Shown in pieces: positions 6,683-21,870 of a stretch of 42,152 bases of DNA (position 1 is the first letter of the stretch; each line of letters begins with the position of its first letter). The notes beneath the pieces are model-generated. The model made no database searches, was not told the origin of the DNA, and was given only the letters and a program-made list of their open reading frames with translations. The position numbers and the translations under genes were made by a program. The stretch lies in IMG/VR virus record IMGVR_UViG_3300037862_000136, positions 1-42,152 of that record; one strand, given 5' to 3'. The stretch is from a virus.

Positions 6683-6757
6683 TGGCTGGCCCCCCAGGAC
6701 TCGAACCTGGAACCATCCGGTTAACAGCCGGGCGCTCTGCCATTGAGCTAGGGGCCA
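6683..6757 (-). tRNA. tRNA-Asn (GTT) with encoded CCA
   Basis: Full cloverleaf on the leftward strand. Acceptor TGGCCCC pairs with GGGGCCA, followed by G73 and a genomic CCA (6683-6685). The D stem is GCTC/GAGC, the anticodon loop is CTGTTAA (anticodon GTT), and the T arm is CCAGG-TTCGAGT-CCTGG. The top pair of the anticodon stem is a C-A mismatch, which may weaken it. It is the only tRNA found in the window. Confidence 0.93.
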
Positions 6758-11210: not shown

Positions 11211-11408
11211 ATGAACGCTTCAACCCAGACCCCGGCCCGTGGCGAGTTTTCGCTGATGACTGCCACGCTGATTCAGATGCGCGACCTCCTCTTCGCTGAG
11301 GCCGGGATTCGCGCCAACAACCACCTTGACCTGGCCGACGCGGGCAAGCGCATCAACGCAGAGTTGGCCCGCCGTGCCGCCGTGCTCACCCCCCGCACCA
11401 TGAACTAA
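11211..11408 (+). CDS. Hypothetical protein, first gene of the rightward operon (65 aa)
   Basis: Not recognised. Mostly helical: SLMTATLIQMRDLLFAEAGI and a second helix ending ELARRAAVL. GAAAGG lies 8 bases before the ATG, and the untranslated sequence (CCAACCCAACCAAACGAAAGG) is shared in style with most genes of this operon. The stop is 2 bases before hammerhead motif 1. Confidence 0.6.
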   Translation: MNASTQTPARGEFSLMTATLIQMRDLLFAEAGIRANNHLDLADAGKRINAELARRAAVLTPRTMN

Positions 11409-11410
11409 CA

Positions 11411-11462
11411 GGTCGAAACCGGTGCAAGCCGGTCGCTGTGTGATGCACAGCCTGATGAGACC
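11411..11462 (+). ncRNA. Type II hammerhead ribozyme motif, copy 1
   Basis: In order: GGTC (stem II strand), GAAA, stem III CCGG-TGCAAG-CCGG, TC (with the preceding G forming the GUC site, cut expected after 11434), stem I GCTGTG-TGATG-CACAGC, CTGATGA, GACC (stem II partner). All conserved core bases of the hammerhead fold are present, and the open ends lie in stem II, which defines type II. Stem II is only 4 bp. It starts 2 bases after a stop codon and ends 19 bases before the next ATG. Confidence 0.9.
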
Positions 11463-11481
11463 ATCCAACCCAACGAAGGGC

Positions 11482-11574
11482 ATGACCATGTTTGATTCAT
11501 ACGAAGAGACCTTGATGGATGCACTCCTCTACGCAGAGGCTGTTACCGAAGCTGTCGTATCCCTCTCTCGCTAG
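11482..11574 (+). CDS. Hypothetical micro-protein (30 aa)
   Basis: MTMFDSYEETLMDALLYAEA then a short hydrophobic C-terminus (AVVSLSR). GAAGGG lies 5 bases before the ATG. Position between a ribozyme motif and a hairpin, in the same layout as its neighbours, supports it as a gene. An amphipathic helix is likely; no function is known. Confidence 0.55.
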   Translation: MTMFDSYEETLMDALLYAEAVTEAVVSLSR

Positions 11575-11577
11575 ACC

Positions 11578-11633
11578 CTCGGGGGGCAAGCCCCCCAGAC
11601 CCCCCACCAACACCGACGAAAGGCACGCCCATG
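11578..11633 (+). repeat. 56-base intercistronic repeat with GC hairpin, copy 1
   Basis: Contains GGGGGG-CAAG-CCCCCC (11581-11596), an ACCCCCCACC linker and the ribosome site CGACGAAAGG up to and including the ATG. One base differs from the copy at 18386-18441. The hairpin may terminate or protect RNA; the repeat also supplies translation start signals. Confidence 0.8.
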
Positions 11634-11855
11634 ATTGACAACCTGACAGACGCTCTCGTGGCGTACGACGACATGCTCGACGATGTGTACAGCGAGGTCA
11701 CCGTCGGGGAGCGCAAGGTCAGCACCTCGCTCGCAATGCGGAAGCTGACTCCGGTTGAATATCAATTCGGCTTCGCCTCCTGGCTCGAAAGCGAGGGCTA
11801 CGCAGACGCGGCAGACGGATGGGACTGGCCCCCCGGAGTATTCGCATTCATGTAG
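11631..11855 (+). CDS. Hypothetical acidic protein (74 aa)
   Basis: Not recognised. Begins MIDNLTDALVAYDDMLDD and ends WPPGVFAFM, with many Asp/Glu. GAAAGG 8 bases before the ATG is part of the 56-base repeat. Followed after 2 bases by hammerhead motif 2. Confidence 0.6.
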   Translation: MIDNLTDALVAYDDMLDDVYSEVTVGERKVSTSLAMRKLTPVEYQFGFASWLESEGYADAADGWDWPPGVFAFM

Positions 11856-11857
11856 CA

Positions 11858-11910
11858 GGTCGAAACCGGCGTGAGCCGGTCTCGGGGGTGATGCCCCGAC
11901 TGACGAGACC
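11858..11910 (+). ncRNA. Type II hammerhead ribozyme motif, copy 2
   Basis: GGTC, GAAA, stem III CCGGC-GTGA-GCCGG, TC (cut expected after 11881), stem I TCGGGG-GTGATG-CCCCGA, CTGACGA, GACC. Stem I and stem III sequences differ from copy 1 yet stay paired, which is covariation. It begins 2 bases after the TAG at 11855 and ends 27 bases before the next ATG. Confidence 0.9.
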
Positions 11911-11937
11911 GTCACCAACCAACCGAAAGGCACGACC

Positions 11938-12309
11938 ATGGAAACGCAATCCAGCACGGAATACACCGTGACCATCACTGCCGTCATTGACCGGCAGTTC
12001 ATCCTCGACGTTATCGACGCGGCGGGCTACGGCATCGGGTACTGGGCAGATGCCGCAGAGGTCGATGAAGAGAGCGACGTCTACCGCGTGAGAGAAGTCA
12101 CGACGTACGAGTCTGTCGGAGTGCCTCGGCAGACGACGGAGCATGTCATCACGTTCGAAGCCCTCGCCCAAGCCCTCGGCAAGCTCGCCGCTGACGGGTG
12201 GCAAAGCATCCAGCAGGGACTAGCCGAGCGCGATGCGGGCCACATCGACTCGCAGGGTGGCGACGCGGCAGTGCAGATGGCCGCGTTCGGGGAACTCGTC
12301 TATGGGTAA
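11938..12309 (+). CDS. Hypothetical protein (123 aa)
   Basis: Not recognised. Begins METQSSTEYTVTITAVIDRQ, with strand-like stretches, then helices (FEALAQALGKLAADGWQSIQ). Acidic overall. CGAAAGG lies 8 bases before the ATG, in the shared leader CCGAAAGGCACGACC. It is flanked by hammerhead motifs 2 and 3, so cleavage at both would release it as a single-gene mRNA. Confidence 0.65.
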   Translation: METQSSTEYTVTITAVIDRQFILDVIDAAGYGIGYWADAAEVDEESDVYRVREVTTYESVGVPRQTTEHVITFEALAQALGKLAADGWQSIQQGLAERDAGHIDSQGGDAAVQMAAFGELVYG

Positions 12310-12314
12310 GCACA

Positions 12315-12364
12315 GGTCGAAACCGCGAGAGCGGTCTCAGGGTGATGCCCTGACTGATGAGACC
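12315..12364 (+). ncRNA. Type II hammerhead ribozyme motif, copy 3
   Basis: GGTC, GAAA, stem III CCGC-GAGA-GCGG, TC (cut expected after 12336), stem I TCAGGG-TGATG-CCCTGA, CTGATGA, GACC. Begins 5 bases after the TAA at 12309 and ends 26 bases before the next ATG. The GNRA-type loop on stem III (GAGA) is shared with copy 4. Confidence 0.92.
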
Positions 12365-12390
12365 ATCCAACCCAACCGAAAGGCACGACC

Positions 12391-13065
12391 ATGAAGCACG
12401 ACAACGAAGCCTCAGCCAGTGCAACCCCGTGGCATGTCCGCGTAGGGAGCGAGCAGGTGTTCACCGGGAGTTACGCACAGGCCACGGCGCGGTATTACCG
12501 CGAGGTGGCTAAGCACCACGAAGACCTCATCAGCATGCGGCCCGCTGACTACGAAACGGAAGGCACGACCATGAAGCAACCCTCCCACCAAGCCGCCATT
12601 GCCACCCGCTACAACATGGAGCGCCTGGCCCTCATTCACCCGAAGCTCGTCGCCTACAGCCCCGTCACGGGTGAGAGACGCAGTGCCGACCCCGGAGACT
12701 ACTTCTGGCGCGGTGAGCATGAGCCGCTGATGGATGAGCACAAAGACCCAATGGTTCTCGGTGTGCCGACCGACGAGGTCAACCCGGTGTTCATCGCGGC
12801 AGAGGCTGACACCCCCTTCGAGCCGCAATTTGGTGAGATGAGCCGCGAGGAATTGCTCGTGATTGCTCGGCGCTACCACCTGATGCTCGGTGAGGTCGAA
12901 GCATTCGCTCCCGGCTCAGAGTGCGACGTTGCAGGCGGTTACCTCGTCATCGACTCGGTCGACCGCTTTGACTCCGACAGCACCTACGCCAACTTCTGGG
13001 GCACCTCCTACGACGAGCACGACATGACCCAGTACGCCCCGTACATTATCGGGGATGTCCTCTAA
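12391..13065 (+). CDS. Hypothetical protein, apparent fusion of two small genes (224 aa)
   Basis: Residues 1-60 (TPWHVRVGSEQVFTGSYAQA) resemble the separate 56-residue protein at 18439 (WRVRVQGEWVFTGTRKEA). At codon 61 the DNA reads GGAAGGCACGACCATG, almost the leader found before other genes here, so ATG 12571 may be an independent start giving a 164-residue protein (MKQPSHQAAIATRYNM...). Loss of a stop and spacer would explain this. The second part is acidic with YFWRGEHEPL and ends in a Tyr/Asp-rich tail. Function unknown. Confidence 0.6.
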   Translation: MKHDNEASASATPWHVRVGSEQVFTGSYAQATARYYREVAKHHEDLISMRPADYETEGTTMKQPSHQAAIATRYNMERLALIHPKLVAYSPVTGERRSADPGDYFWRGEHEPLMDEHKDPMVLGVPTDEVNPVFIAAEADTPFEPQFGEMSREELLVIARRYHLMLGEVEAFAPGSECDVAGGYLVIDSVDRFDSDSTYANFWGTSYDEHDMTQYAPYIIGDVL

Positions 13066-13107
13066 GTCACAAAGCAATAACGGTGTGTCCTACCTGGGCA
13101 TACCGAC

Positions 13108-13146
13108 GGCGGTGCGCGGTTATTCCTGGTGGAGCCTCGCACCGCC
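13108..13146 (+). terminator. Intercistronic hairpin before the MoxR-type gene
   Basis: GGCGGTGCG (13108-13116) pairs with CGCACCGCC (13138-13146) around a 21-base loop. It lies between the stop at 13065 and ATG 13178. It may end, slow or protect transcripts rather than stop them completely, since the operon continues. Confidence 0.5.
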
Positions 13147-13177
13147 CGCAACAAACAACAGCAGAAAGAAGAAGCCC

Positions 13178-14596
13178 ATGTACGCAGTCATCATTCAGTC
13201 GGCGGTCAATGCCAGCGCAGTGCGGCAGACCGCCATCGTGCCCCAAGAGGCACCCAGCGAGCCGCGCGTGTTCACGCGACTCGGAGCAGGACAGCGGGGC
13301 ACCGCCGGTGCCTGGTCAGAACTCTCCTGCGGAGAAGTTAGCTCCAGCATGAGCGTGACCGCCAGCGCGGCCATCGTCGGTGAGCCGGTGAGCATCACCG
13401 TCACGGCAAGCGATGCCCGCGACCTCGTCGGTGGAGGCTTCCCCGGTACGCTCCTGCAGAAGCTCGTCAGAGCCGCGCGGCGAACCGCTGACGGCGCAAG
13501 CGAGACCGAAGCTGAGGGCGAAGGCTCGGTGGTGGGACGCATCCTGCACGAGGCAACCAGCACCCCCGCGGTGCTCGTTCGCTACATCCGCGGACTGGCC
13601 CCGAGTGCCCCTCGACCGCTGGTCATTCAGCGGGAGGTCATGCGGGTGCCGGAGCAGGCCGCAGACACCGTCGTGAGCGCCCCGGTGATGCAGGCTGAGC
13701 CGTTCATCACGACCTGGACAGACTTGAACATCCCGCAGGCCAGTGACCCGGTCGTCGCAGGCTATGTCGAACGGTCATTCCCCGGCGGTCGGAGCGAGAC
13801 CGAGGTCTACGACTTTGCCCGCTTGCGCGGTGAGGCCGTGAACATCGTCGGGCCAGCAGGCACCGGCAAGACCTCCTCGGCGCGGGCATATGCCGCCAAG
13901 CGCGGACTGCCCTTCGTCGTCTTCGAGTGCAACCCGCAGGTCGATGAGGAGGTCGTGCAGGGGACGTACATCCCCACTGGCAACGGCACCGAGCTTCGCT
14001 GGCGCTACTCCGCACTGGCAACGGCGCTGAGCCAGCCGAGCGTCGTTCTGCTGAATGAGTCGAACCGCATGACAGCGAAGGCGAACGCGTTGTTCCTGGC
14101 CATCCTGCAGGAGCGAGAGCTTCGAGTCAGCCGCCACGCCGGTGAGGTGCTCTCGGTTCACCCCGACTGCCTCATCATTGCCGACAGCAACGACGGCTAC
14201 CGTGGCACGCAGAAGAGCGACCAGGCGTTCCTCGACCGCTTCAACATGAAGGTCGAGTTCGCCTACGACAGGAAAGTCGAAGCGGAGTTCATTCCGAGCA
14301 CGACGCTACTGGACATGGCAACGCGACTCCGTGAGGATGCCGACCGCGAGAGCACCTTTAGCACCCCGGTGTCCACGCGCATCCTCAAGAACTTTGTCAG
14401 CCAGGCACAGGGTCTCGGCTGGGAGTTCGCGTACGACTCGTTCCTCAACAACTTTCCCACGACCGAGCGAGATGCTCTCGGAATGGTCTTTACGACCTAC
14501 TCCCACGGCATCAAGCGAGAGCTTGGCCTCCTCGCGGGGGCTGAGCCGGTCGTGGAGACAGCCGATGAGGATGAGCTTCTTATCAGTGGCTTCTAG
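13178..14596 (+). CDS. MoxR/CobS-type AAA+ ATPase
   Basis: MoxR-family ATPases act with VWA proteins as chaperone- or chelatase-like pairs. After about 200 residues without known motifs come VNIVGPAGTGKTSSA (Walker A, near residue 229), SVVLLNESNRM (Walker B position, Asn where Asp is usual), DCLIIADSND (sensor 1) and FLDRFNMKVEF (Arg finger region). The frame is open back to 13055, but ATG 13178 was chosen because its leader (CAACAAACAACAGC, then AGAAAGAAG) matches other genes of the operon. About 472 residues. The VWA partner follows directly. Confidence 0.85.
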   Translation: MYAVIIQSAVNASAVRQTAIVPQEAPSEPRVFTRLGAGQRGTAGAWSELSCGEVSSSMSVTASAAIVGEPVSITVTASDARDLVGGGFPGTLLQKLVRAARRTADGASETEAEGEGSVVGRILHEATSTPAVLVRYIRGLAPSAPRPLVIQREVMRVPEQAADTVVSAPVMQAEPFITTWTDLNIPQASDPVVAGYVERSFPGGRSETEVYDFARLRGEAVNIVGPAGTGKTSSARAYAAKRGLPFVVFECNPQVDEEVVQGTYIPTGNGTELRWRYSALATALSQPSVVLLNESNRMTAKANALFLAILQERELRVSRHAGEVLSVHPDCLIIADSNDGYRGTQKSDQAFLDRFNMKVEFAYDRKVEAEFIPSTTLLDMATRLREDADRESTFSTPVSTRILKNFVSQAQGLGWEFAYDSFLNNFPTTERDALGMVFTTYSHGIKRELGLLAGAEPVVETADEDELLISGF

Positions 14597-14632
14597 CCAC
14601 GCTGTACCGGGGGGCGGGCACGACCCGCCCCC
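14594..14632 (+). terminator. Intercistronic GC hairpin, long-repeat copy 1
   Basis: GGGGGCGGG (14610-14618) pairs with CCCGCCCCC (14624-14632). The 27 bases from the stop codon into the hairpin (14594-14620) recur exactly at 17454-17480, and both are followed by TGCGACCCCCACCC. The hairpin type GGGG..CCCC-N-GACCCC also occurs at 10095 and 10490. Confidence 0.65.
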
Positions 14633-14674
14633 TGCGACCCCCACCCAACACAAACAACGCCAACGGAGGCAACC

Positions 14675-16645
14675 ATGACCAACGCATTGAAGCACGAGAA
14701 GGGCATGACCGTAACCACGACCGAGCTTGCCGAGCGTGCCAACGCTCGGGCACAGCGGGTGGCTCAGGTTGCCGAGCGTTATGCCTCGGTACTCAGCGGG
14801 CACAAGGTTCACGCGAGAGTCATTCCCACGGGCAAGTCGCCCGCCTGGAGCACCAGCAACGCCATCACCTTCGTGCAGGAGCACCTCTTCGGAGACCTGT
14901 TCAGCCCCGCCGGTGCCATGAGCATCAAAGGGCTGACGTTGCACGAGACCTGCCACATCCTCTTCACGCCGCGCGCGGGGAGCAACCTCGTAGAGCAGGT
15001 TGTCGAAGCCGGTGTCCACCGCGCGTTCAACGTGCTCGAAGACCAGCGCATCGAGACTCTAATGGTCGGCAAGTTTGGCGCGCCGGTGGTGCCCTGGCTG
15101 ACGGCAGTCATTGCCCACCACCTGCTAAACGATGCCTCAGATGTCGGCACCGCTTTTCCGCTGACCCACGGTCGGCGCTACCTCTCGCTGGAGGTTCGCA
15201 GAGCGGTGCGGGGGGCATTCGCACAGCCCGAGAACACCGAGCGCATCGCGGCAATCATCGACGAGTACCGGACGCTGGCTTTCCCCGAGATTCTCGGTGA
15301 TGAGCGGGCGTTCGACCTCATCGTAGAGTTCGATGACCTCATCAAGCAGTTGCCCGAAGTCGGGGCAGGCACCTGCGCTGACCAGCGCGGTGACCGTCAT
15401 GACCCGAACGCTGACGCTCGGCCTGCGGGTCGGCGAGAGCAGGAACGCCTGACCAAGGACGCACAGCAGACCGAGAAGGATGCCGACGACCTGACTGACG
15501 ACGAGCCTGACTGGGGCACCGACGCTGACAGCCCGCGTGATGCAGACGACGCTGACGGCGACGACGGTGAAGCTGACGGCGACGACGGTGACGCTGACGC
15601 TGACGGCGACGAGGGTGCTGACGACGGTGGCAGTGACGCCCCCGGCAACAGCGCCGCTGATGCTGACGGCGACGAGGGTGCTGAGGGTGACACTGACGGC
15701 GACGGTGGTGGCTCCCTGGCAGGCACCAAGGCGGGCGCTGAGGCGGCAGAGAAGGCACTGCAGGATGCCCTCGACGGAGCCTACGAGGCCGTGAAGGATG
15801 AGGTCTCCCGTGACCTGCGCGCCTTCAACGGCGATGCAGAACTCGCTGAGGGCGGCACCTCACACCTGGCCCCCTACATCGGCTACACCGAGCGCGCGGC
15901 AGAGACCATGACAGTGCGGGCAAGCCAGGCGTTTGGCACGGAGCTAGAACTCCTCAAGGCTGAGTCTGACCCCGGTTGGGAGCGGATGACGCGGTCAGGC
16001 CGCATCAACGCCGCGCGCTACCTGCGGGGTGCTGACCTGGACGAGGCCTTCGACCGTTGGGAGAGCGACAAGGAAGACAGCCTCGACATTGAGGCGGTCA
16101 TCCTGCTCGACCACAGCGGCTCGATGGAGAGCGACATGGCCGGAGCTAACGACTCGATGTGGGCCATCAAGCGCGCTCTTGACCGCATCAACGCCAGCAC
16201 GACGGTGATTCTGTTCAACGAGGATGCTCATATCCTCTACTCCGCAGACGAGACCGCCACGAGCCGTGTGCGCGCCGCAAAGTCTTCCGGGGGGACAGTG
16301 CCCGGTACGGCACTGCGGCACGCTCGGCACATCCTGGCCAACTCCGGTCGCACGACGAAGATTCTCCTGTCCATCACGGACGGGGAGTGGAGCGCGACCA
16401 AGGGCTGGTGGGGGAGTAGCAACGCCGTAGAGAGCGCCCGCGAAGCTACCCAGCCGGATAACAACGACGAGGTCGTCAGCGAGTTGCGGGAACACGGGGT
16501 ACTCACCGCTATCTGCCACATTGGCCGAGCGTGGGGGGAGCCTGACGCGCACAACCACGAGGTCGTCATTCAACTGACGGACACCACGAAGCTGTTCGCG
16601 GTAGCACGCGGTCTCGTCCGAGCGGTAGCCGCACGCAACAACTAA
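14675..16645 (+). CDS. Metallopeptidase-like plus VWA domain protein (CobT/DUF2201-like), MoxR partner
   Basis: 656 residues. The N-terminal part has LTLHETCHILFTPR near residue 88, an HExxH zinc-site pattern as in putative metallopeptidase/VWA proteins. Residues 240-350 are a low-complexity Asp/Gly/Ala linker. The C-terminal VWA domain has the MIDAS motif ILLDHSGSMES near residue 478, a SGGTVPGTAL threonine loop and LLSITDGEW. GGAGG lies 5 bases before the ATG. Gene order MoxR-VWA is typical of the family, so the two probably form one machine; target unknown. SEA-PHAGES-type annotations call such proteins CobT-like. Confidence 0.85.
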   Translation: MTNALKHEKGMTVTTTELAERANARAQRVAQVAERYASVLSGHKVHARVIPTGKSPAWSTSNAITFVQEHLFGDLFSPAGAMSIKGLTLHETCHILFTPRAGSNLVEQVVEAGVHRAFNVLEDQRIETLMVGKFGAPVVPWLTAVIAHHLLNDASDVGTAFPLTHGRRYLSLEVRRAVRGAFAQPENTERIAAIIDEYRTLAFPEILGDERAFDLIVEFDDLIKQLPEVGAGTCADQRGDRHDPNADARPAGRREQERLTKDAQQTEKDADDLTDDEPDWGTDADSPRDADDADGDDGEADGDDGDADADGDEGADDGGSDAPGNSAADADGDEGAEGDTDGDGGGSLAGTKAGAEAAEKALQDALDGAYEAVKDEVSRDLRAFNGDAELAEGGTSHLAPYIGYTERAAETMTVRASQAFGTELELLKAESDPGWERMTRSGRINAARYLRGADLDEAFDRWESDKEDSLDIEAVILLDHSGSMESDMAGANDSMWAIKRALDRINASTTVILFNEDAHILYSADETATSRVRAAKSSGGTVPGTALRHARHILANSGRTTKILLSITDGEWSATKGWWGSSNAVESAREATQPDNNDEVVSELREHGVLTAICHIGRAWGEPDAHNHEVVIQLTDTTKLFAVARGLVRAVAARNN

Positions 16646-16650
16646 GCACC

Positions 16651-16679
16651 ACGGGCGGGGAGCCACTCTCCCCGCCCGT
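16651..16679 (+). terminator. Intercistronic 12-bp hairpin after the VWA gene
   Basis: ACGGGCGGGGAG pairs perfectly with CTCCCCGCCCGT across 5 bases, 5 bases after the TAA. No T run follows, so it may be a partial terminator or an RNA end protector. Confidence 0.65.
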
Positions 16680-16700
16680 ACCAACCTAGAGGAGAACAAC

Positions 16701-17456
16701 ATGTTGAACGCAGACTTTCAGAAGCTGGTCAAGAAGGGCACTGGCGCAGACTACTTCGCCGTCATCAAGCCGAACGTGTCGGTACGGGCAGGCACCTCCT
16801 GGACGACGGAGAATGTCCCCGCCGAGAAGATAGTAAAGGCGAGACTGATGTTCACCTTCGGAGTTAGCTCCGACACGCACCGCATCACCGGCTACACAAC
16901 CTCACCCGGCTCCTCTGTGGGCCTCGTCGGCCCCGGTCACTGGCCCGTGGAGGTGCAAGAGATGAACGCGCCTAGCTGGGACGATGCGCTGGATGGGTGG
17001 CGAGCACGCAAGGCTCCCGACGGGCAGAGAACGAAATACTACGTCTTCGTCGTCGACGACGCTCAGGGCTTGGCCGCGGGCATCTTCGCGGTGCCGGTCA
17101 AGCATGTCGTCGGTGCCTGGGATGCCGCAGTCGACGCTCGCTTTCACGCCGAGGCCATCGCCAAGAAGGCCGAGACAGACCTGGCCAAAGAGCGAGAAGA
17201 CCGCGTGGAGATTGCCAGAACGCAGGGCGAGTCGGCCATGAATCACCGCGTGCTGGCCATCAACGACTTTGTCGCTGAGGTGGTGGGCAAGCCTGACTCG
17301 GTGCGCGTCACCGCCAAGGGCAGTGTCGGCTGGGACAGCATCCTCGACCGAGCACGGTTCACCGTCGCTGGCACAGTGACGATGACCATTGCCGACTTCA
17401 ACCGTGTGCTCAATACCATCAGCGAGTTGAAGACTGAACTCGCTGACCGAGGGTAG
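16701..17456 (+). CDS. Hypothetical protein of the MoxR/VWA cluster (251 aa)
   Basis: Not recognised. The first 140 residues look like mixed strands (ADYFAVIKPNVSVRAGTSW, KARLMFTFGVSS). The middle (AKKAETDLAKEREDRVEIA) is a charged helix, possibly coiled coil. The end (FTVAGTVTMTIADFNRVLN) is beta then helix. AGAGGAG lies 6 bases before the ATG. Position after the VWA gene suggests a cofactor or substrate of that pair, which is inference only. Confidence 0.65.
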   Translation: MLNADFQKLVKKGTGADYFAVIKPNVSVRAGTSWTTENVPAEKIVKARLMFTFGVSSDTHRITGYTTSPGSSVGLVGPGHWPVEVQEMNAPSWDDALDGWRARKAPDGQRTKYYVFVVDDAQGLAAGIFAVPVKHVVGAWDAAVDARFHAEAIAKKAETDLAKEREDRVEIARTQGESAMNHRVLAINDFVAEVVGKPDSVRVTAKGSVGWDSILDRARFTVAGTVTMTIADFNRVLNTISELKTELADRG

Positions 17457-17492
17457 CCACGCTGTACCGGGGGGCGGGCAAGCCCCGCCCCC
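17454..17492 (+). terminator. Intercistronic GC hairpin, long-repeat copy 2
   Basis: GGGGGCGGG (17470-17478) with CCCGCCCCC (17484-17492). The first 27 bases are identical to 14594-14620; the loop differs (CAAGC for CACGA). Confidence 0.65.
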
Positions 17493-17534
17493 TGCGACCC
17501 CCACCCGCCACAAACAACTCCAAAGGAGGTAATC

Positions 17535-18296
17535 ATGACCATCACAGACCTCACCGAGAAGGTGACGTTCGACACCTACAGCTACCTGCAGGATGGCCTC
17601 GACTATTGGCCGGTGTGCAAGCGTTGCGGGGGCACCGGCAACGTCGGCATCTACTGGGTCGAAGGCGGTAGCTGTTTCGACTGCCGCGGTCGTGGCACAA
17701 CCGCGCGAGTTCCACTGACGGAAACCCAGGCCCGCACGCGGGCACAGCAACTCAACCGCTCACGAGATGCCCGCGTGGCAAAGCGCGCAAGCGAGCAGGA
17801 GAGCGGCCTTGCCACCGCGCTCGCTCTGCGAGCAGCGTTTGAAGCTGCGCATCCGGAGCTTGTCGGCGCACTGCAGTCGGCTCAGGGTGGCTTCTTGGAA
17901 CGACTGCGCGAGGCGCTGGAGCAGAACGGAACGCTCACCGCGAACCAAGTCAAGGCAGGCCTCGACGTGATGGCCAGCGATGCCGAGAGGGCACTCCTGC
18001 GGGATGAACGAAGCCTCCTCAGCCACGCTCTCGGTGAGCCGGGGGAGAAGGTCGCAGTCACCGGCACCATCGAGACCCTGACCAGCATTGCGGGAAGCTA
18101 CGGAAGCTCGATGCTGGTGGTCTTGGTCACTGATGGGCAGGTCGTCGTCAAGACCTTCACCACAGCGGCATGGGGCTGGGAGGTATCGCGCGGGGAGCGG
18201 GTAACCCTGGCAGGAACCGTCAAGAAGAACGAGACCTACCAGGGCGTGACTGCCTCGGTACTGACTCGGTGCAAAAAGACAGCGGCAAGCGCGTGA
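17535..18296 (+). CDS. DnaJ-type zinc-finger protein with OB-like C-terminal domain (253 aa)
   Basis: Two CxxCxGxG units (CKRCGGTG near residue 30 and CFDCRGRG near residue 49) form a DnaJ-like zinc finger. Residues 70-165 are helical and Arg/Ala rich. The C-terminal 80 residues (KVAVTGTIETLTSI, SMLVVLVTDGQVVVK, RVTLAGTVKKNETYQG) have the strand pattern of an OB fold and may bind nucleic acid. AAAGGAGG lies 6 bases before the ATG. A ssDNA/RNA-binding or chaperone-adaptor role is possible. Confidence 0.7.
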   Translation: MTITDLTEKVTFDTYSYLQDGLDYWPVCKRCGGTGNVGIYWVEGGSCFDCRGRGTTARVPLTETQARTRAQQLNRSRDARVAKRASEQESGLATALALRAAFEAAHPELVGALQSAQGGFLERLREALEQNGTLTANQVKAGLDVMASDAERALLRDERSLLSHALGEPGEKVAVTGTIETLTSIAGSYGSSMLVVLVTDGQVVVKTFTTAAWGWEVSRGERVTLAGTVKKNETYQGVTASVLTRCKKTAASA

Positions 18297-18382
18297 GGCG
18301 GCTCGGGCAGGTCATCGGCGTTCTCATCCTTGTAGGGCTGTACCTCGTAGCGGGAAGTATCTGCGAAGTTCCAGCTTGCTAA
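18293..18382 (+). CDS. Single-span membrane micro-protein (29 aa)
   Basis: VRRLGQVIGVLILVGLYLVA followed by a short tail with two Cys. Two Arg before the helix suggest an inside N-terminus. GTG at 18293 overlaps the upstream TGA as GTGA, giving translational coupling; the frame is also open further upstream but would then overlap the previous gene. Confidence 0.6.
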   Translation: MRRLGQVIGVLILVGLYLVAGSICEVPAC

Positions 18383-18385
18383 GCA

Positions 18386-18441
18386 CTCGGGGGGCAAGCC
18401 CCCCAGACCCCCCACCAACACCGACGAAAGGCACGACCATG
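18386..18441 (+). repeat. 56-base intercistronic repeat with GC hairpin, copy 2
   Basis: Same as 11578-11633 except one base: GGGGGG-CAAG-CCCCCC (18389-18404), linker, CGACGAAAGGCACGACC and ATG. Presence of the same block before two unrelated genes points to duplication of the junction itself. Confidence 0.8.
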
Positions 18442-18609
18442 ATGAACATGCTAGAAGGCTCCGCGAGTGTGGGGGAGTGGCGCGTCCGTGTACAGGGCGA
18501 ATGGGTGTTCACGGGAACCCGCAAAGAAGCGCGTCGTCAGGCTGATGCTGAGGCTGAACGGGAGTGGCAACCCGACGCGAAAGTGACCATAAGGATTGTC
18601 AAGAACTAG
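18439..18609 (+). CDS. Hypothetical protein, paralogue of N-terminus of 12391 gene (56 aa)
   Basis: GEWRVRVQGEWVFTGTRKEA matches in pattern the PWHVRVGSEQVFTGS segment of the fused protein at 12391: two strands, V-F-T-G turn, then a charged helix. Function unknown. A second in-frame ATG follows the first. The stop lies 2 bases before hammerhead motif 4. Confidence 0.65.
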   Translation: MMNMLEGSASVGEWRVRVQGEWVFTGTRKEARRQADAEAEREWQPDAKVTIRIVKN

Positions 18610-18611
18610 CA

Positions 18612-18661
18612 GGTCGAAACCGCGAGAGCGGTCTTGGGGTGATGCCCCAACTGACGAGACC
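18612..18661 (+). ncRNA. Type II hammerhead ribozyme motif, copy 4
   Basis: GGTC, GAAA, stem III CCGC-GAGA-GCGG, TC (cut expected after 18633), stem I TTGGGG-TGATG-CCCCAA, CTGACGA, GACC. Against copy 3, stem I changes C-G to T-A and A-T to G-C while pairing is kept. Starts 2 bases after a TAG and ends 11 bases before ATG 18673. Confidence 0.92.
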
Positions 18662-18672
18662 AAGGAGTCATC

Positions 18673-19068
18673 ATGCACCTCAGCACCCGCAGTGCGGCAA
18701 AGCGCCGAGAGCAAGCCATCAAGATTCTGCAGGCCCGAGTGGCTCTGCGGATGACAGCCTTTCCGGAGGTCTTCCCTGGAGGAGAGAACCTCCTGCGGCT
18801 GAGCCTCGAACGACTCGATGAGTACACCTCGCGGAAAGACCCGTTCGTCGTTACGCGGAGGGTCTATCTGCCCACATTTCGAGAGCACCAACGGCTCAGC
18901 AACCTGGGGTTAACTGAGGTCGAGTACATGTTGGAAACTATCTCTCGCGGGTGGCTCCTACTTGCCACAGCGGAGACCTCAAAGGTCAGCATCACTCCCC
19001 AGAGCATCATCGAGTACAAACCCCTAAGCCGATTCTTCAAGAAGGAGAGCACCAATGAAGCTGTTTAG
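18673..19068 (+). CDS. Hypothetical protein (131 aa)
   Basis: Not recognised. Basic N-terminus (RSAAKRREQAIKILQAR), then RLSLERLDEY, and strand-like segments (VYLPTFREH, GWLLLATAETSKVSITP). AAGGAG lies 6 bases before the ATG. Its 3' end overlaps the next gene by 14 bases. Confidence 0.65.
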   Translation: MHLSTRSAAKRREQAIKILQARVALRMTAFPEVFPGGENLLRLSLERLDEYTSRKDPFVVTRRVYLPTFREHQRLSNLGLTEVEYMLETISRGWLLLATAETSKVSITPQSIIEYKPLSRFFKKESTNEAV

Positions 19069-20340: not shown

Positions 20341-21870
20341 TCAGATGTCTTCTAGCGCCTGCTGGATAATGAGCGTGGTCTGCTCCTCTGAGAGCTTCGC
20401 AGGCTCATCCCTGACGGCCTGAGCCTGGTTGCCAAAGATGCGGCTGAGCACCCCCCCGGAGGACTGCCGCTCGATGGTGATGCGCTCGAACTCTCGGTTC
20501 TCATCCATCTTTTTCATGGTCGAAACGAGCTTGAAGAGGCGGTCTACTTCTTGACTTAGGTTGGGGTCGCTGTAGCCGCCTCCGACATCCTCCGCGAACT
20601 TCATGAAGGCCACCCGTTGCCCCTGCATCTCAACAACGGACAGGAGAAGCGCCTTCAACTGGTCGGCAGTTTGTACCTGTACCGGAAGGTTAAACGCGCA
20701 GACCGAACCGGGCTTGAAAGCGGGGCAGTTGGCCGCGACAAAGCAGGTGTCGCACTGCCGCATGCTGGTCGCCTGAGAGCGCATCATGGGCAAGTCTTTG
20801 AGCGTCTGTGTGCCGTCCTCTGCGACGTCGATAACCTTCTGTATCTCGATACCTACCCCAGGCAGAATTGTCATCTCCTGGGGGTCACGAGGGGCCGGAG
20901 GAGTGGCACTAACATTCCGCACTCCGACATCACTGTTAGTAGATGCCCCTATGCCCATTTCCATCAAACCGGTGTATAGGGTGTCATCACTGTTATCAGC
21001 TACTTTCTTGCCCTCGCCCGGTGTGCGACCCCCGGGGATGGAAGTAAGTCTCTTTTTACGCTCTTCTTTGTCCATGGCAATCTCCAGTTGACGGTATGAC
21101 CACACAGCAACCTTGGTGGCTTCCAGGGTGTCGTCATCGAGGAACTTCTCAAAGTCCAAGCCAGCGCCCGTGACTAAGCTCTTGTACCGAGGCCGAGCCT
21201 GCGCCTTCATTCGCTTGGGATAGCGGACAAGCTTGGAGCCGTCCCAGACAATGGTCTCGCCACGGCGCATCGGGGAGAGCCACGAGAGCGTGCTGGCGGT
21301 GCTAAACGGAATCTGCCGGAGGTTGTCGGGCTTAGCCACGGCGAGAGCGTGGAAGGCCACAGGGTACTGCGTCTGCAACTGGCGCGTGATGCCCGCAAGG
21401 TTTGTGGCGGATTCGACCGTGGCCCCGGGGATAGCGATGTTCGCGTATGACTCCGCCCACCTCCGTAAGACGGGGATACCGTAGCTTTCGTGCCACACCA
21501 CCCACATCTTCGGGTCGTTCTCAAAAGCTGCGCGGTTAGCCGCAATGGCCGGAAGCCCCAGCTTCTGACTGTCAAACTCGACCCAGCCCTCGATGCGGTC
21601 GTAGTTGTAGGCAATGAAGTCTTCGTACTCACCGGCGTACTCATCACGCTCTCGGACAGTGAGTTCAGCCTTGTCGGCTTGAACAGAGCCGCTGTCTATC
21701 CAGACCTTCATCTCGGGAAGGAAGTGCTCCCCCACAAGGTACGGCTTCGTCTTAGGCAGGCCGCGCTTGCGCAACCCCCAGAAGTTGAGCATGACGGAGT
21801 CGACTCCTGCGCGCTCCAACAGGGTGCGGTTAGAGGGAACCTCTACCCCGCCAAAGACAAGAGCGGTCAT
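20341..21870 (-). CDS. TGT/DpdA-like TIM-barrel protein with Cys-rich C-terminal domain (509 aa)
   Basis: The N-terminal half resembles queuine tRNA-ribosyltransferase-like barrels: EMKVWIDSGSVQAD near residue 53 (the D-S-G turn), long barrel helices, and FSTASTLSWLSPMRRG near residue 190 where such proteins usually have D-S-x-S-W. Here that Asp is Ala. The C-terminal part has MRQCDTCFVAANCPAF then SVCAF, four Cys that could hold Zn or Fe-S. If active it would exchange a base in DNA or RNA. Assignment is tentative; no 7-deazaguanine synthesis gene is visible in the window. Confidence 0.45.
   Translation of the reverse strand: MTALVFGGVEVPSNRTLLERAGVDSVMLNFWGLRKRGLPKTKPYLVGEHFLPEMKVWIDSGSVQADKAELTVRERDEYAGEYEDFIAYNYDRIEGWVEFDSQKLGLPAIAANRAAFENDPKMWVVWHESYGIPVLRRWAESYANIAIPGATVESATNLAGITRQLQTQYPVAFHALAVAKPDNLRQIPFSTASTLSWLSPMRRGETIVWDGSKLVRYPKRMKAQARPRYKSLVTGAGLDFEKFLDDDTLEATKVAVWSYRQLEIAMDKEERKKRLTSIPGGRTPGEGKKVADNSDDTLYTGLMEMGIGASTNSDVGVRNVSATPPAPRDPQEMTILPGVGIEIQKVIDVAEDGTQTLKDLPMMRSQATSMRQCDTCFVAANCPAFKPGSVCAFNLPVQVQTADQLKALLLSVVEMQGQRVAFMKFAEDVGGGYSDPNLSQEVDRLFKLVSTMKKMDENREFERITIERQSSGGVLSRIFGNQAQAVRDEPAKLSEEQTTLIIQQALEDI

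Follow-up and report, generated by a model that had tools for sequence, protein, structure and literature searches.

The window analyzed here is a 42,152-base stretch of viral DNA, the whole of positions 1-42,152 of the virus record IMGVR_UViG_3300037862_000136. Between approximately 11.2 and 19.4 kilobases (kb) it carries a run of plus-strand genes, flanked by long minus-strand blocks with genes for a DNA polymerase, a helicase, a primase, a thymidylate synthase and a RecA-like protein. Within this run lie four complete type II hammerhead ribozyme motifs, all on the plus strand and all at gene junctions, in agreement with the first-pass annotation of this DNA, which had described such motifs at successive junctions of one operon.

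Hammerhead 1 (11411-11462) follows a 65-amino-acid (aa) open reading frame (ORF; 11211-11408) that ends in TAA at 11406-11408. It carries a GCAA tetraloop on stem III and the core segment CTGATGA, and its predicted cut lies after 11434. Two ORFs, one of 28 aa (11488-11574; leader CCCAACGAAGGGCATGACC, repeat D3) and one of 74 aa (11631-11855; phrog_9294, unknown), separate it from hammerhead 2 (11858-11910), which stands behind a TAG stop at 11853-11855, has a GTGA tetraloop and CTGACGA, and would be cut after 11881. A 123-aa ORF (11938-12309; phrog_2355, unknown) is flanked by hammerheads 2 and 3; its TAA stop (12307-12309) precedes hammerhead 3 (12315-12364; GAGA tetraloop, CTGATGA, predicted cut after 12336). 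Hammerhead 4 (18612-18661; GAGA tetraloop, CTGACGA, predicted cut after 18633) follows the TAG stop (18607-18609) of a 56-aa ORF (18439-18609), and directly 3' of it are a Shine-Dalgarno (SD) sequence, AAGGAG, and the ATG (18673) of a 131-aa ORF (18673-19068). The stop codons thus end at offsets of -2, -2, -5 and -2 nucleotides (nt) from hammerheads 1 to 4. All of these ORFs are on the plus strand and, like the others in the window, are predictions.

Read directly from the sequence, all four elements have the order A-GGTC-GAAA-stem III-TC-stem I-CTGAYGA-GACC, with GGTC and GACC forming stem II. The invariant core (C3 U4 G5 A6 N7 G8 A9 / G12 A13 A14 / A15.1-U16.1 / H17) is present in every copy, and every stem III tetraloop is of the GNRA kind. 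The minimum-energy fold of each isolated motif is the hammerhead secondary structure (4/4); by both sequence order and fold, loops close stems I and III and stem II is open, which defines type II. Between the copies, stems I and III covary and the core stays fixed, as had been claimed, and the coordinates, core letters, stem pairings and four cut positions given earlier were likewise all correct. A pattern search of the window returned these four matches, all on the plus strand, compared with none in 100 dinucleotide shuffles, so that none of the four is expected by chance. They also share the hallmark of clustered phage hammerheads, lying within a single co-directional gene run. Positions 18610-18662 have the same letters in L125, a relative with more than 99% identity.

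Recognition and conservation among viral hammerheads

A discovery pattern of the hammerhead core plus GGTC/GACC, with no pairing demanded in stems I and III, was run over viral contigs and returned at least 118 stretches; counts from the viral scans are lower bounds. Although pairing was not required by the search, both stems are formed by 133 of the 135 distinct viral matches listed. From 53 diverse viral hammerheads, with the window and its relative excluded, we built an alignment (A1) and a covariance model (R1). Two-sided changes occur in 13 of its 16 pairs, 99.4% of positions are paired, and the pair covariation score is 0.778 versus 0.149 after shuffling, all three values being from rows that had been preselected for pairing. 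With filters off, this held-out model finds exactly four elements in the window, at 67.0, 60.1, 65.0 and 64.3 bits for hammerheads 1 to 4 (E values of approximately 1e-15 to 1e-17). The next match scores 13.8 bits, and no further degenerate hammerheads were found in the window by this search.

The Rfam model Hammerhead_II (RF02276) performs differently. On the window it lists only 11858-11917, at 30.1 bits against a cut-off of 37, and leaves the other three elements unlisted, so that the check proposed in the first-pass annotation, a search with Rfam hammerhead models, yields a single sub-threshold match, whereas our own held-out model recovers all four. The low score is a limit of the reach of the Rfam model and not a defect of the core: none of more than 50 elements in 11 viral loci reaches the Rfam cut-off. 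Like RF02276, the elements combine a GAAA / CUGAUGA core with an open stem II and with stems I and III closed into hairpins; they differ in having a stem II of 4 base pairs (bp), compared with 2 bp in the Rfam consensus, and a UNANG loop I. Because this compact sub-type escapes the Rfam cut-off, operons of this kind have probably been overlooked in phage annotation.

Across the viral elements, the A at -1 and the U at the first loop I position are each conserved at 99%. Stem I with its loop measures 17 nt in 142 of 156 elements, stem III ranges from 12 to about 30 nt, and 68 of 95 four-base stem III loops are GNRA or UNCG. In copies that the discovery pattern does not cover, the unpaired catalytic core is retained with hardly an exception and all stems change, subject to the reservation that core letters count in the score of the model by which these copies were detected; compensated stem II variants among them include GGAC/GTCC, AGAC/GTCT and GATC/GATC. 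Since the unpaired core is kept while the stems vary, selection seems to act on catalysis and not just on hairpins. Two further observations concern the anatomy of these elements. The conservation of A(-1) and of the loop I U suggests a candidate Hoogsteen contact between them. In addition, otherwise complete elements in which one additional T separates A9 from stem II (CTGANGA-T-GACC) occur in L084 (137-189 and 745-797), L031 (119-171) and L083 (3993-4061).

Position at stop codons and the core-tail hairpin

The placement of the hammerheads just past stop codons is general among the viral elements. Of 158 usable elements, 78% have the stop codon of a preceding frame (60 codons or longer) ending between -8 and +3 nt from the ribozyme, versus 5% for random positions, and later viral scans repeated this abutment (80/98 and 38/49). 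The offsets peak at -2 (TAA-CA-GGTC) and at +1 (a TAG sharing its last letter with the first G of the ribozyme), which together account for approximately half of the viral elements. On the other side, the median distance to the next start codon with an SD sequence is 22 nt. Near-identical type II hammerheads located 10-11 nt past a stop codon were also seen in several Gastranaerophilales or other gut genomes (L138, L139, L142, L146, L136 and L156).

Many viruses carry more than one such element. At least two hammerheads occur in 18 of 40 viral records, in a nonrandom sample that put multi-copy records first; the earlier view that type II hammerheads usually occur as single copies is therefore doubtful. 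Pattern searches of whole records found 9 elements in one 43-kb record and 7 in one 39-kb record, and the covariance model gave at least 9 matches within a 4-kb stretch of the former and 12 within a 5.4-kb stretch of the latter. Most intervals of these arrays of 9 and 12 contain a single main ORF. In L127, all eight intervals between adjacent ribozymes hold one main ORF, which starts 14-37 nt after one ribozyme and ends within 10 nt of the next.

In some elements the tail directly after stem II reads RUCAG and is complementary to the core segment CUGAY. All five tail pairs are present in 16 of 154 unselected elements (approximately 10%), compared with 0.1 when the tail letters are shuffled. 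Two tail scans, one with NTCAG as the tail and one with the control tail NACAA, placed no constraint on core position 7 or tail position 1. Among 116 distinct elements with NTCAG tails, these two positions are T/A in 67, C/G in 48, T/G in one and C/A in none; 115 are therefore Watson-Crick and the remaining one is a G-U pair. The same distribution holds over 44 clusters of less than 85% similarity (27/16/1/0, p 4e-11), whereas control tails show no covariation (T/A 37, C/A 15). Because core 7 and tail 1 covary with NTCAG and not with NACAA, we conclude that the tail pairs with the core to form the hairpin CUGAYG[AGNC]CRUCAG, which is incompatible with the active fold. By nearest-neighbor energies, which exclude tertiary contacts, the alternative is favored over the active fold by a median of 1.5 kcal/mol, and it is formed by all 18 modeled 3' cleavage products. 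A single phage can hold both tailed and tailless elements.

In the window this tail is partial: hammerheads 1 to 4 have 3, 4, 3 and 0 contiguous tail pairs to C3-N7, compared with five in the full RUCAG class. Short alternative core-tail hairpins lie at 11454-11465 (GATG[AGAC]CATC, 4 bp), 11901-11914 (TGACG[AGAC]CGTCA, 5 bp) and 12356-12367 (GATG[AGAC]CATC, 4 bp), all on the plus strand. The first is mutually exclusive with the active fold, and its longer form is the one that covaries in other phages; the second pairs core C7 with a tail G, the corresponding pair in hammerheads 1 and 3 being T with A. We also considered a loop I/3'-tail pseudoknot as a general tertiary contact and rejected it, as runs of at least 4 pairs across 154 elements do not depart from the range obtained with shuffled tails. 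By eye, some hammerheads in L331 and in L334 resemble the type with a loop I/tail pseudoknot and stand beside RUCAG-tail elements, giving two sub-types in one genome.

Proposed processing of the polycistronic mRNA

We propose that the window carries four genuine, probably active type II hammerheads that cut the polycistronic plus-strand mRNA just past stop codons, a reading to which we assign a probability of roughly 0.6. After cleavage 3' of the GUC, the upstream cistron would retain a minimal 3' untranslated region of about 25 nt, closed off by stem III with its tetraloop and bearing a terminal 2',3'-cyclic phosphate. A 5'-hydroxyl and the stem I hairpin would form the start of the downstream cistron, its own SD sequence and start codon intact. 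At these junctions the operon could be split, without a nuclease, into separately bounded mRNAs whose hairpin ends might be protected. Ribozyme folding would probably be sensitive to translation of the upstream gene, because the first 11 or so nt of the ribozyme lie under the terminating ribosome, and in the RUCAG-tail sub-class the tail-core pairing might either trap the cut product or set an off state. Cutting of the window mRNA in vivo is likely. Segmentation into single-gene or small-group mRNAs, as suggested in the first-pass annotation, is plausible, and related prophage arrays have been shown to cut themselves both in vitro and in E. coli (PMC3088659). The interval between hammerheads 1 and 2 holds two predicted ORFs (28 aa and 74 aa) and not one.

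Several observations weigh against this proposal. Uncut mRNA could be translated equally well. Hammerheads occupy only 4 of about 12 junctions in the run, the remainder being plain hairpins or overlapping genes. In L131, which has a 50% relative of the AAA gene described below, no hammerhead was found, and the elements are therefore not required at particular genes. In bacterial contigs, fewer elements abut a stop codon (13/34) and some matches look like chance, and the core-tail hairpins of the window are just 4-5 bp long, with none beside stem II in hammerhead 4.

Processing of phage mRNA at structured intercistronic sites has a protein-dependent counterpart in the T7 early mRNA, where RNase III sites yield gene-size units with 3' hairpins. 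The hammerheads would resemble these sites functionally in dividing a polycistronic phage mRNA; they differ in being self-catalyzed, requiring no protein and leaving 5'-hydroxyl and 2',3'-cyclic phosphate ends. Although the first-pass annotation knew of no description of such an arrangement, clustered type I, II and III hammerheads that flank genes or short gene blocks in prophages were published by Perreault et al. in 2011, who proposed that long phage mRNAs are segmented in this way and demonstrated cleavage both in vitro and in E. coli (PMC3088659). The window adds another example of these serial phage hammerheads and matches them in ribozyme class, in permutation, in having single genes or short blocks flanked by several copies, and in the proposed processing. 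For type II, Figure 2A of that study proposes a loop I/3'-tail pseudoknot; here, in contrast, the UNANG loop I shows no clear excess of tail complementarity and stem II is 4 bp. Stop codons are absent from its main text, and the sections compared here describe no core-pairing tail. A 2017 review repeats the processing idea for clustered hammerheads, notes that neighboring motifs flank ORFs for small non-conserved proteins with a link to phages, and calls the role of prokaryotic hammerheads an open question (PMC6155905). The elements described here likewise flank small ORFs and are phage-linked; they differ in that the part of the review compared here quantifies no positions and gives no core-tail hairpin. 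The stop-codon rule, the density of one gene per ribozyme, the Rfam miss and the core-tail hairpin were not found in the papers searched, a set without supplements, subscription papers or preprints, and are provisionally new. Dense one-gene-one-ribozyme operons, fixed stop spacing and a core-pairing tail sub-class make the open question of hammerhead function (PMC6155905) directly testable.

It is possible, though we hold this only tentatively, that the elements are bistable, translation-gated switches. A terminating ribosome at the abutting stop would mask the first bases, the RUCAG tail would refold the core, and mRNA would be cut free only in defined translation states. This overlaps with simple cleavage past the stop codons and adds regulation to it. 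The stop at -2 or +1 in about half of the viral elements, the nearly perfect Watson-Crick complementarity at the sole variable position of the core-tail hairpin and the near balance of the two secondary structures (median -1.5 kcal/mol) are all consistent with a switch. However, the full tail is absent from most elements, the active fold is transcribed ahead of the tail, and the tail may come into play only once cleavage has occurred, by trapping the product. The post-stop position, which the elements share with the plain GC hairpins of the operon, could alternatively mean that they serve as non-catalytic 3' hairpins only; we consider this very unlikely, as inert hairpins would lose the unpaired core that is conserved in more than 100 elements.

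A role mainly as recombination boundaries, in which repeats made of a leader and either a ribozyme or a hairpin let gene cassettes be gained, lost and swapped and self-cleavage is secondary, appears unlikely, even though junction units also behave as cassette borders. The close relatives L125 and L126 (>99% identical) have an extra gene cassette of about 0.7 kb at the 18.4-kb hairpin junction, and the break falls within a leader repeat (18412-18445; region 18375-18448 of the window, 1521-2340 of L125). Variants of this leader also follow hammerheads 1-3 and are common to many junctions, hairpin units recur across junctions, and hammerheads are more alike within contigs than between them (similarity 0.65 vs 0.55, p 1e-12). 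Yet the cassette break lies in a leader/hairpin unit and not in a hammerhead, and recombination would neither hold the unpaired core invariant with free stems nor demand abutment to stop codons. We regard as most improbable the excision of single-gene RNAs by pairs of hammerheads and their ligation into circles. Dense arrays do have one main gene between adjacent ribozymes, the cleavage ends are ligatable, a related actinophage has RNA ligase genes and the window itself contains an RNA-repair-like HAD_SAK_2 gene; Perreault et al., however, sought circular or spliced products and found none (PMC3088659). Cleavage of the polycistronic mRNA just past stop codons remains our preferred reading.

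Other junctions and genes of the window

The ribozyme-free junctions of the run hold GC hairpins without T tracts, mostly shortly past a stop codon, or overlapping genes. On the plus strand, such hairpins lie at 11581-11596 (no U tract; repeat D6), after the stop at 11572-11574; at 14609-14632, after the stop at 14594-14596, within a 93-nt unit that is repeated at 17454-17546 (repeat D4); at 16651-16679, a 12-bp hairpin at the 16645/16701 junction; and at 18389-18404, at the junction upstream of 18439, the border of the cassette found in L125. Two of the junction hairpins belong to units that recur, one 74 nt and the other 93 nt long. A search for intrinsic terminators in the operon found 4 on both strands versus 6.9 expected, the junction hairpins lacking T runs. 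Rfam matches to tpke11 and Ocean-VII in the window are plain GC hairpins far under the cut-off and were discarded.

The window probably represents part of an actinobacterial phage genome, because the closest annotated relatives of its helicase are in Streptomyces phages, at about 38% identity. No near DNA match was found among 50,697 phage records, blastn with a single 54-nt element gave no match, and no hammerhead was found in positions 1-100000 of Streptomyces phage BRock, which has the closest helicase relative (38%). Downstream of hammerhead 3, a 224-aa ORF (12391-13065) without a family match is followed by an AAA+ ATPase gene (13055-14596; phrog_249, CobS/MoxR-like) and a gene for a CobT-like VWA-domain protein (14675-16645), all on the plus strand. 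The latter two form an AAA+ ATPase and VWA/CobT-like pair (13055-16645), and the CobT-like relatives, in Gordonia and Brevibacterium phages, share approximately 30-35% identity. On the minus strand, the gene at 1899-2579 matches HAD_SAK_2, a HAD domain of 'Swiss Army Knife' RNA repair proteins, slightly above the Pfam cut-off; RNA repair substrates include hammerhead ends. The same strand encodes a queuine tRNA-ribosyltransferase-like protein (20341-21870; phrog_887) and a tRNA (6686-6757) with the anticodon GUU by Rfam alignment.

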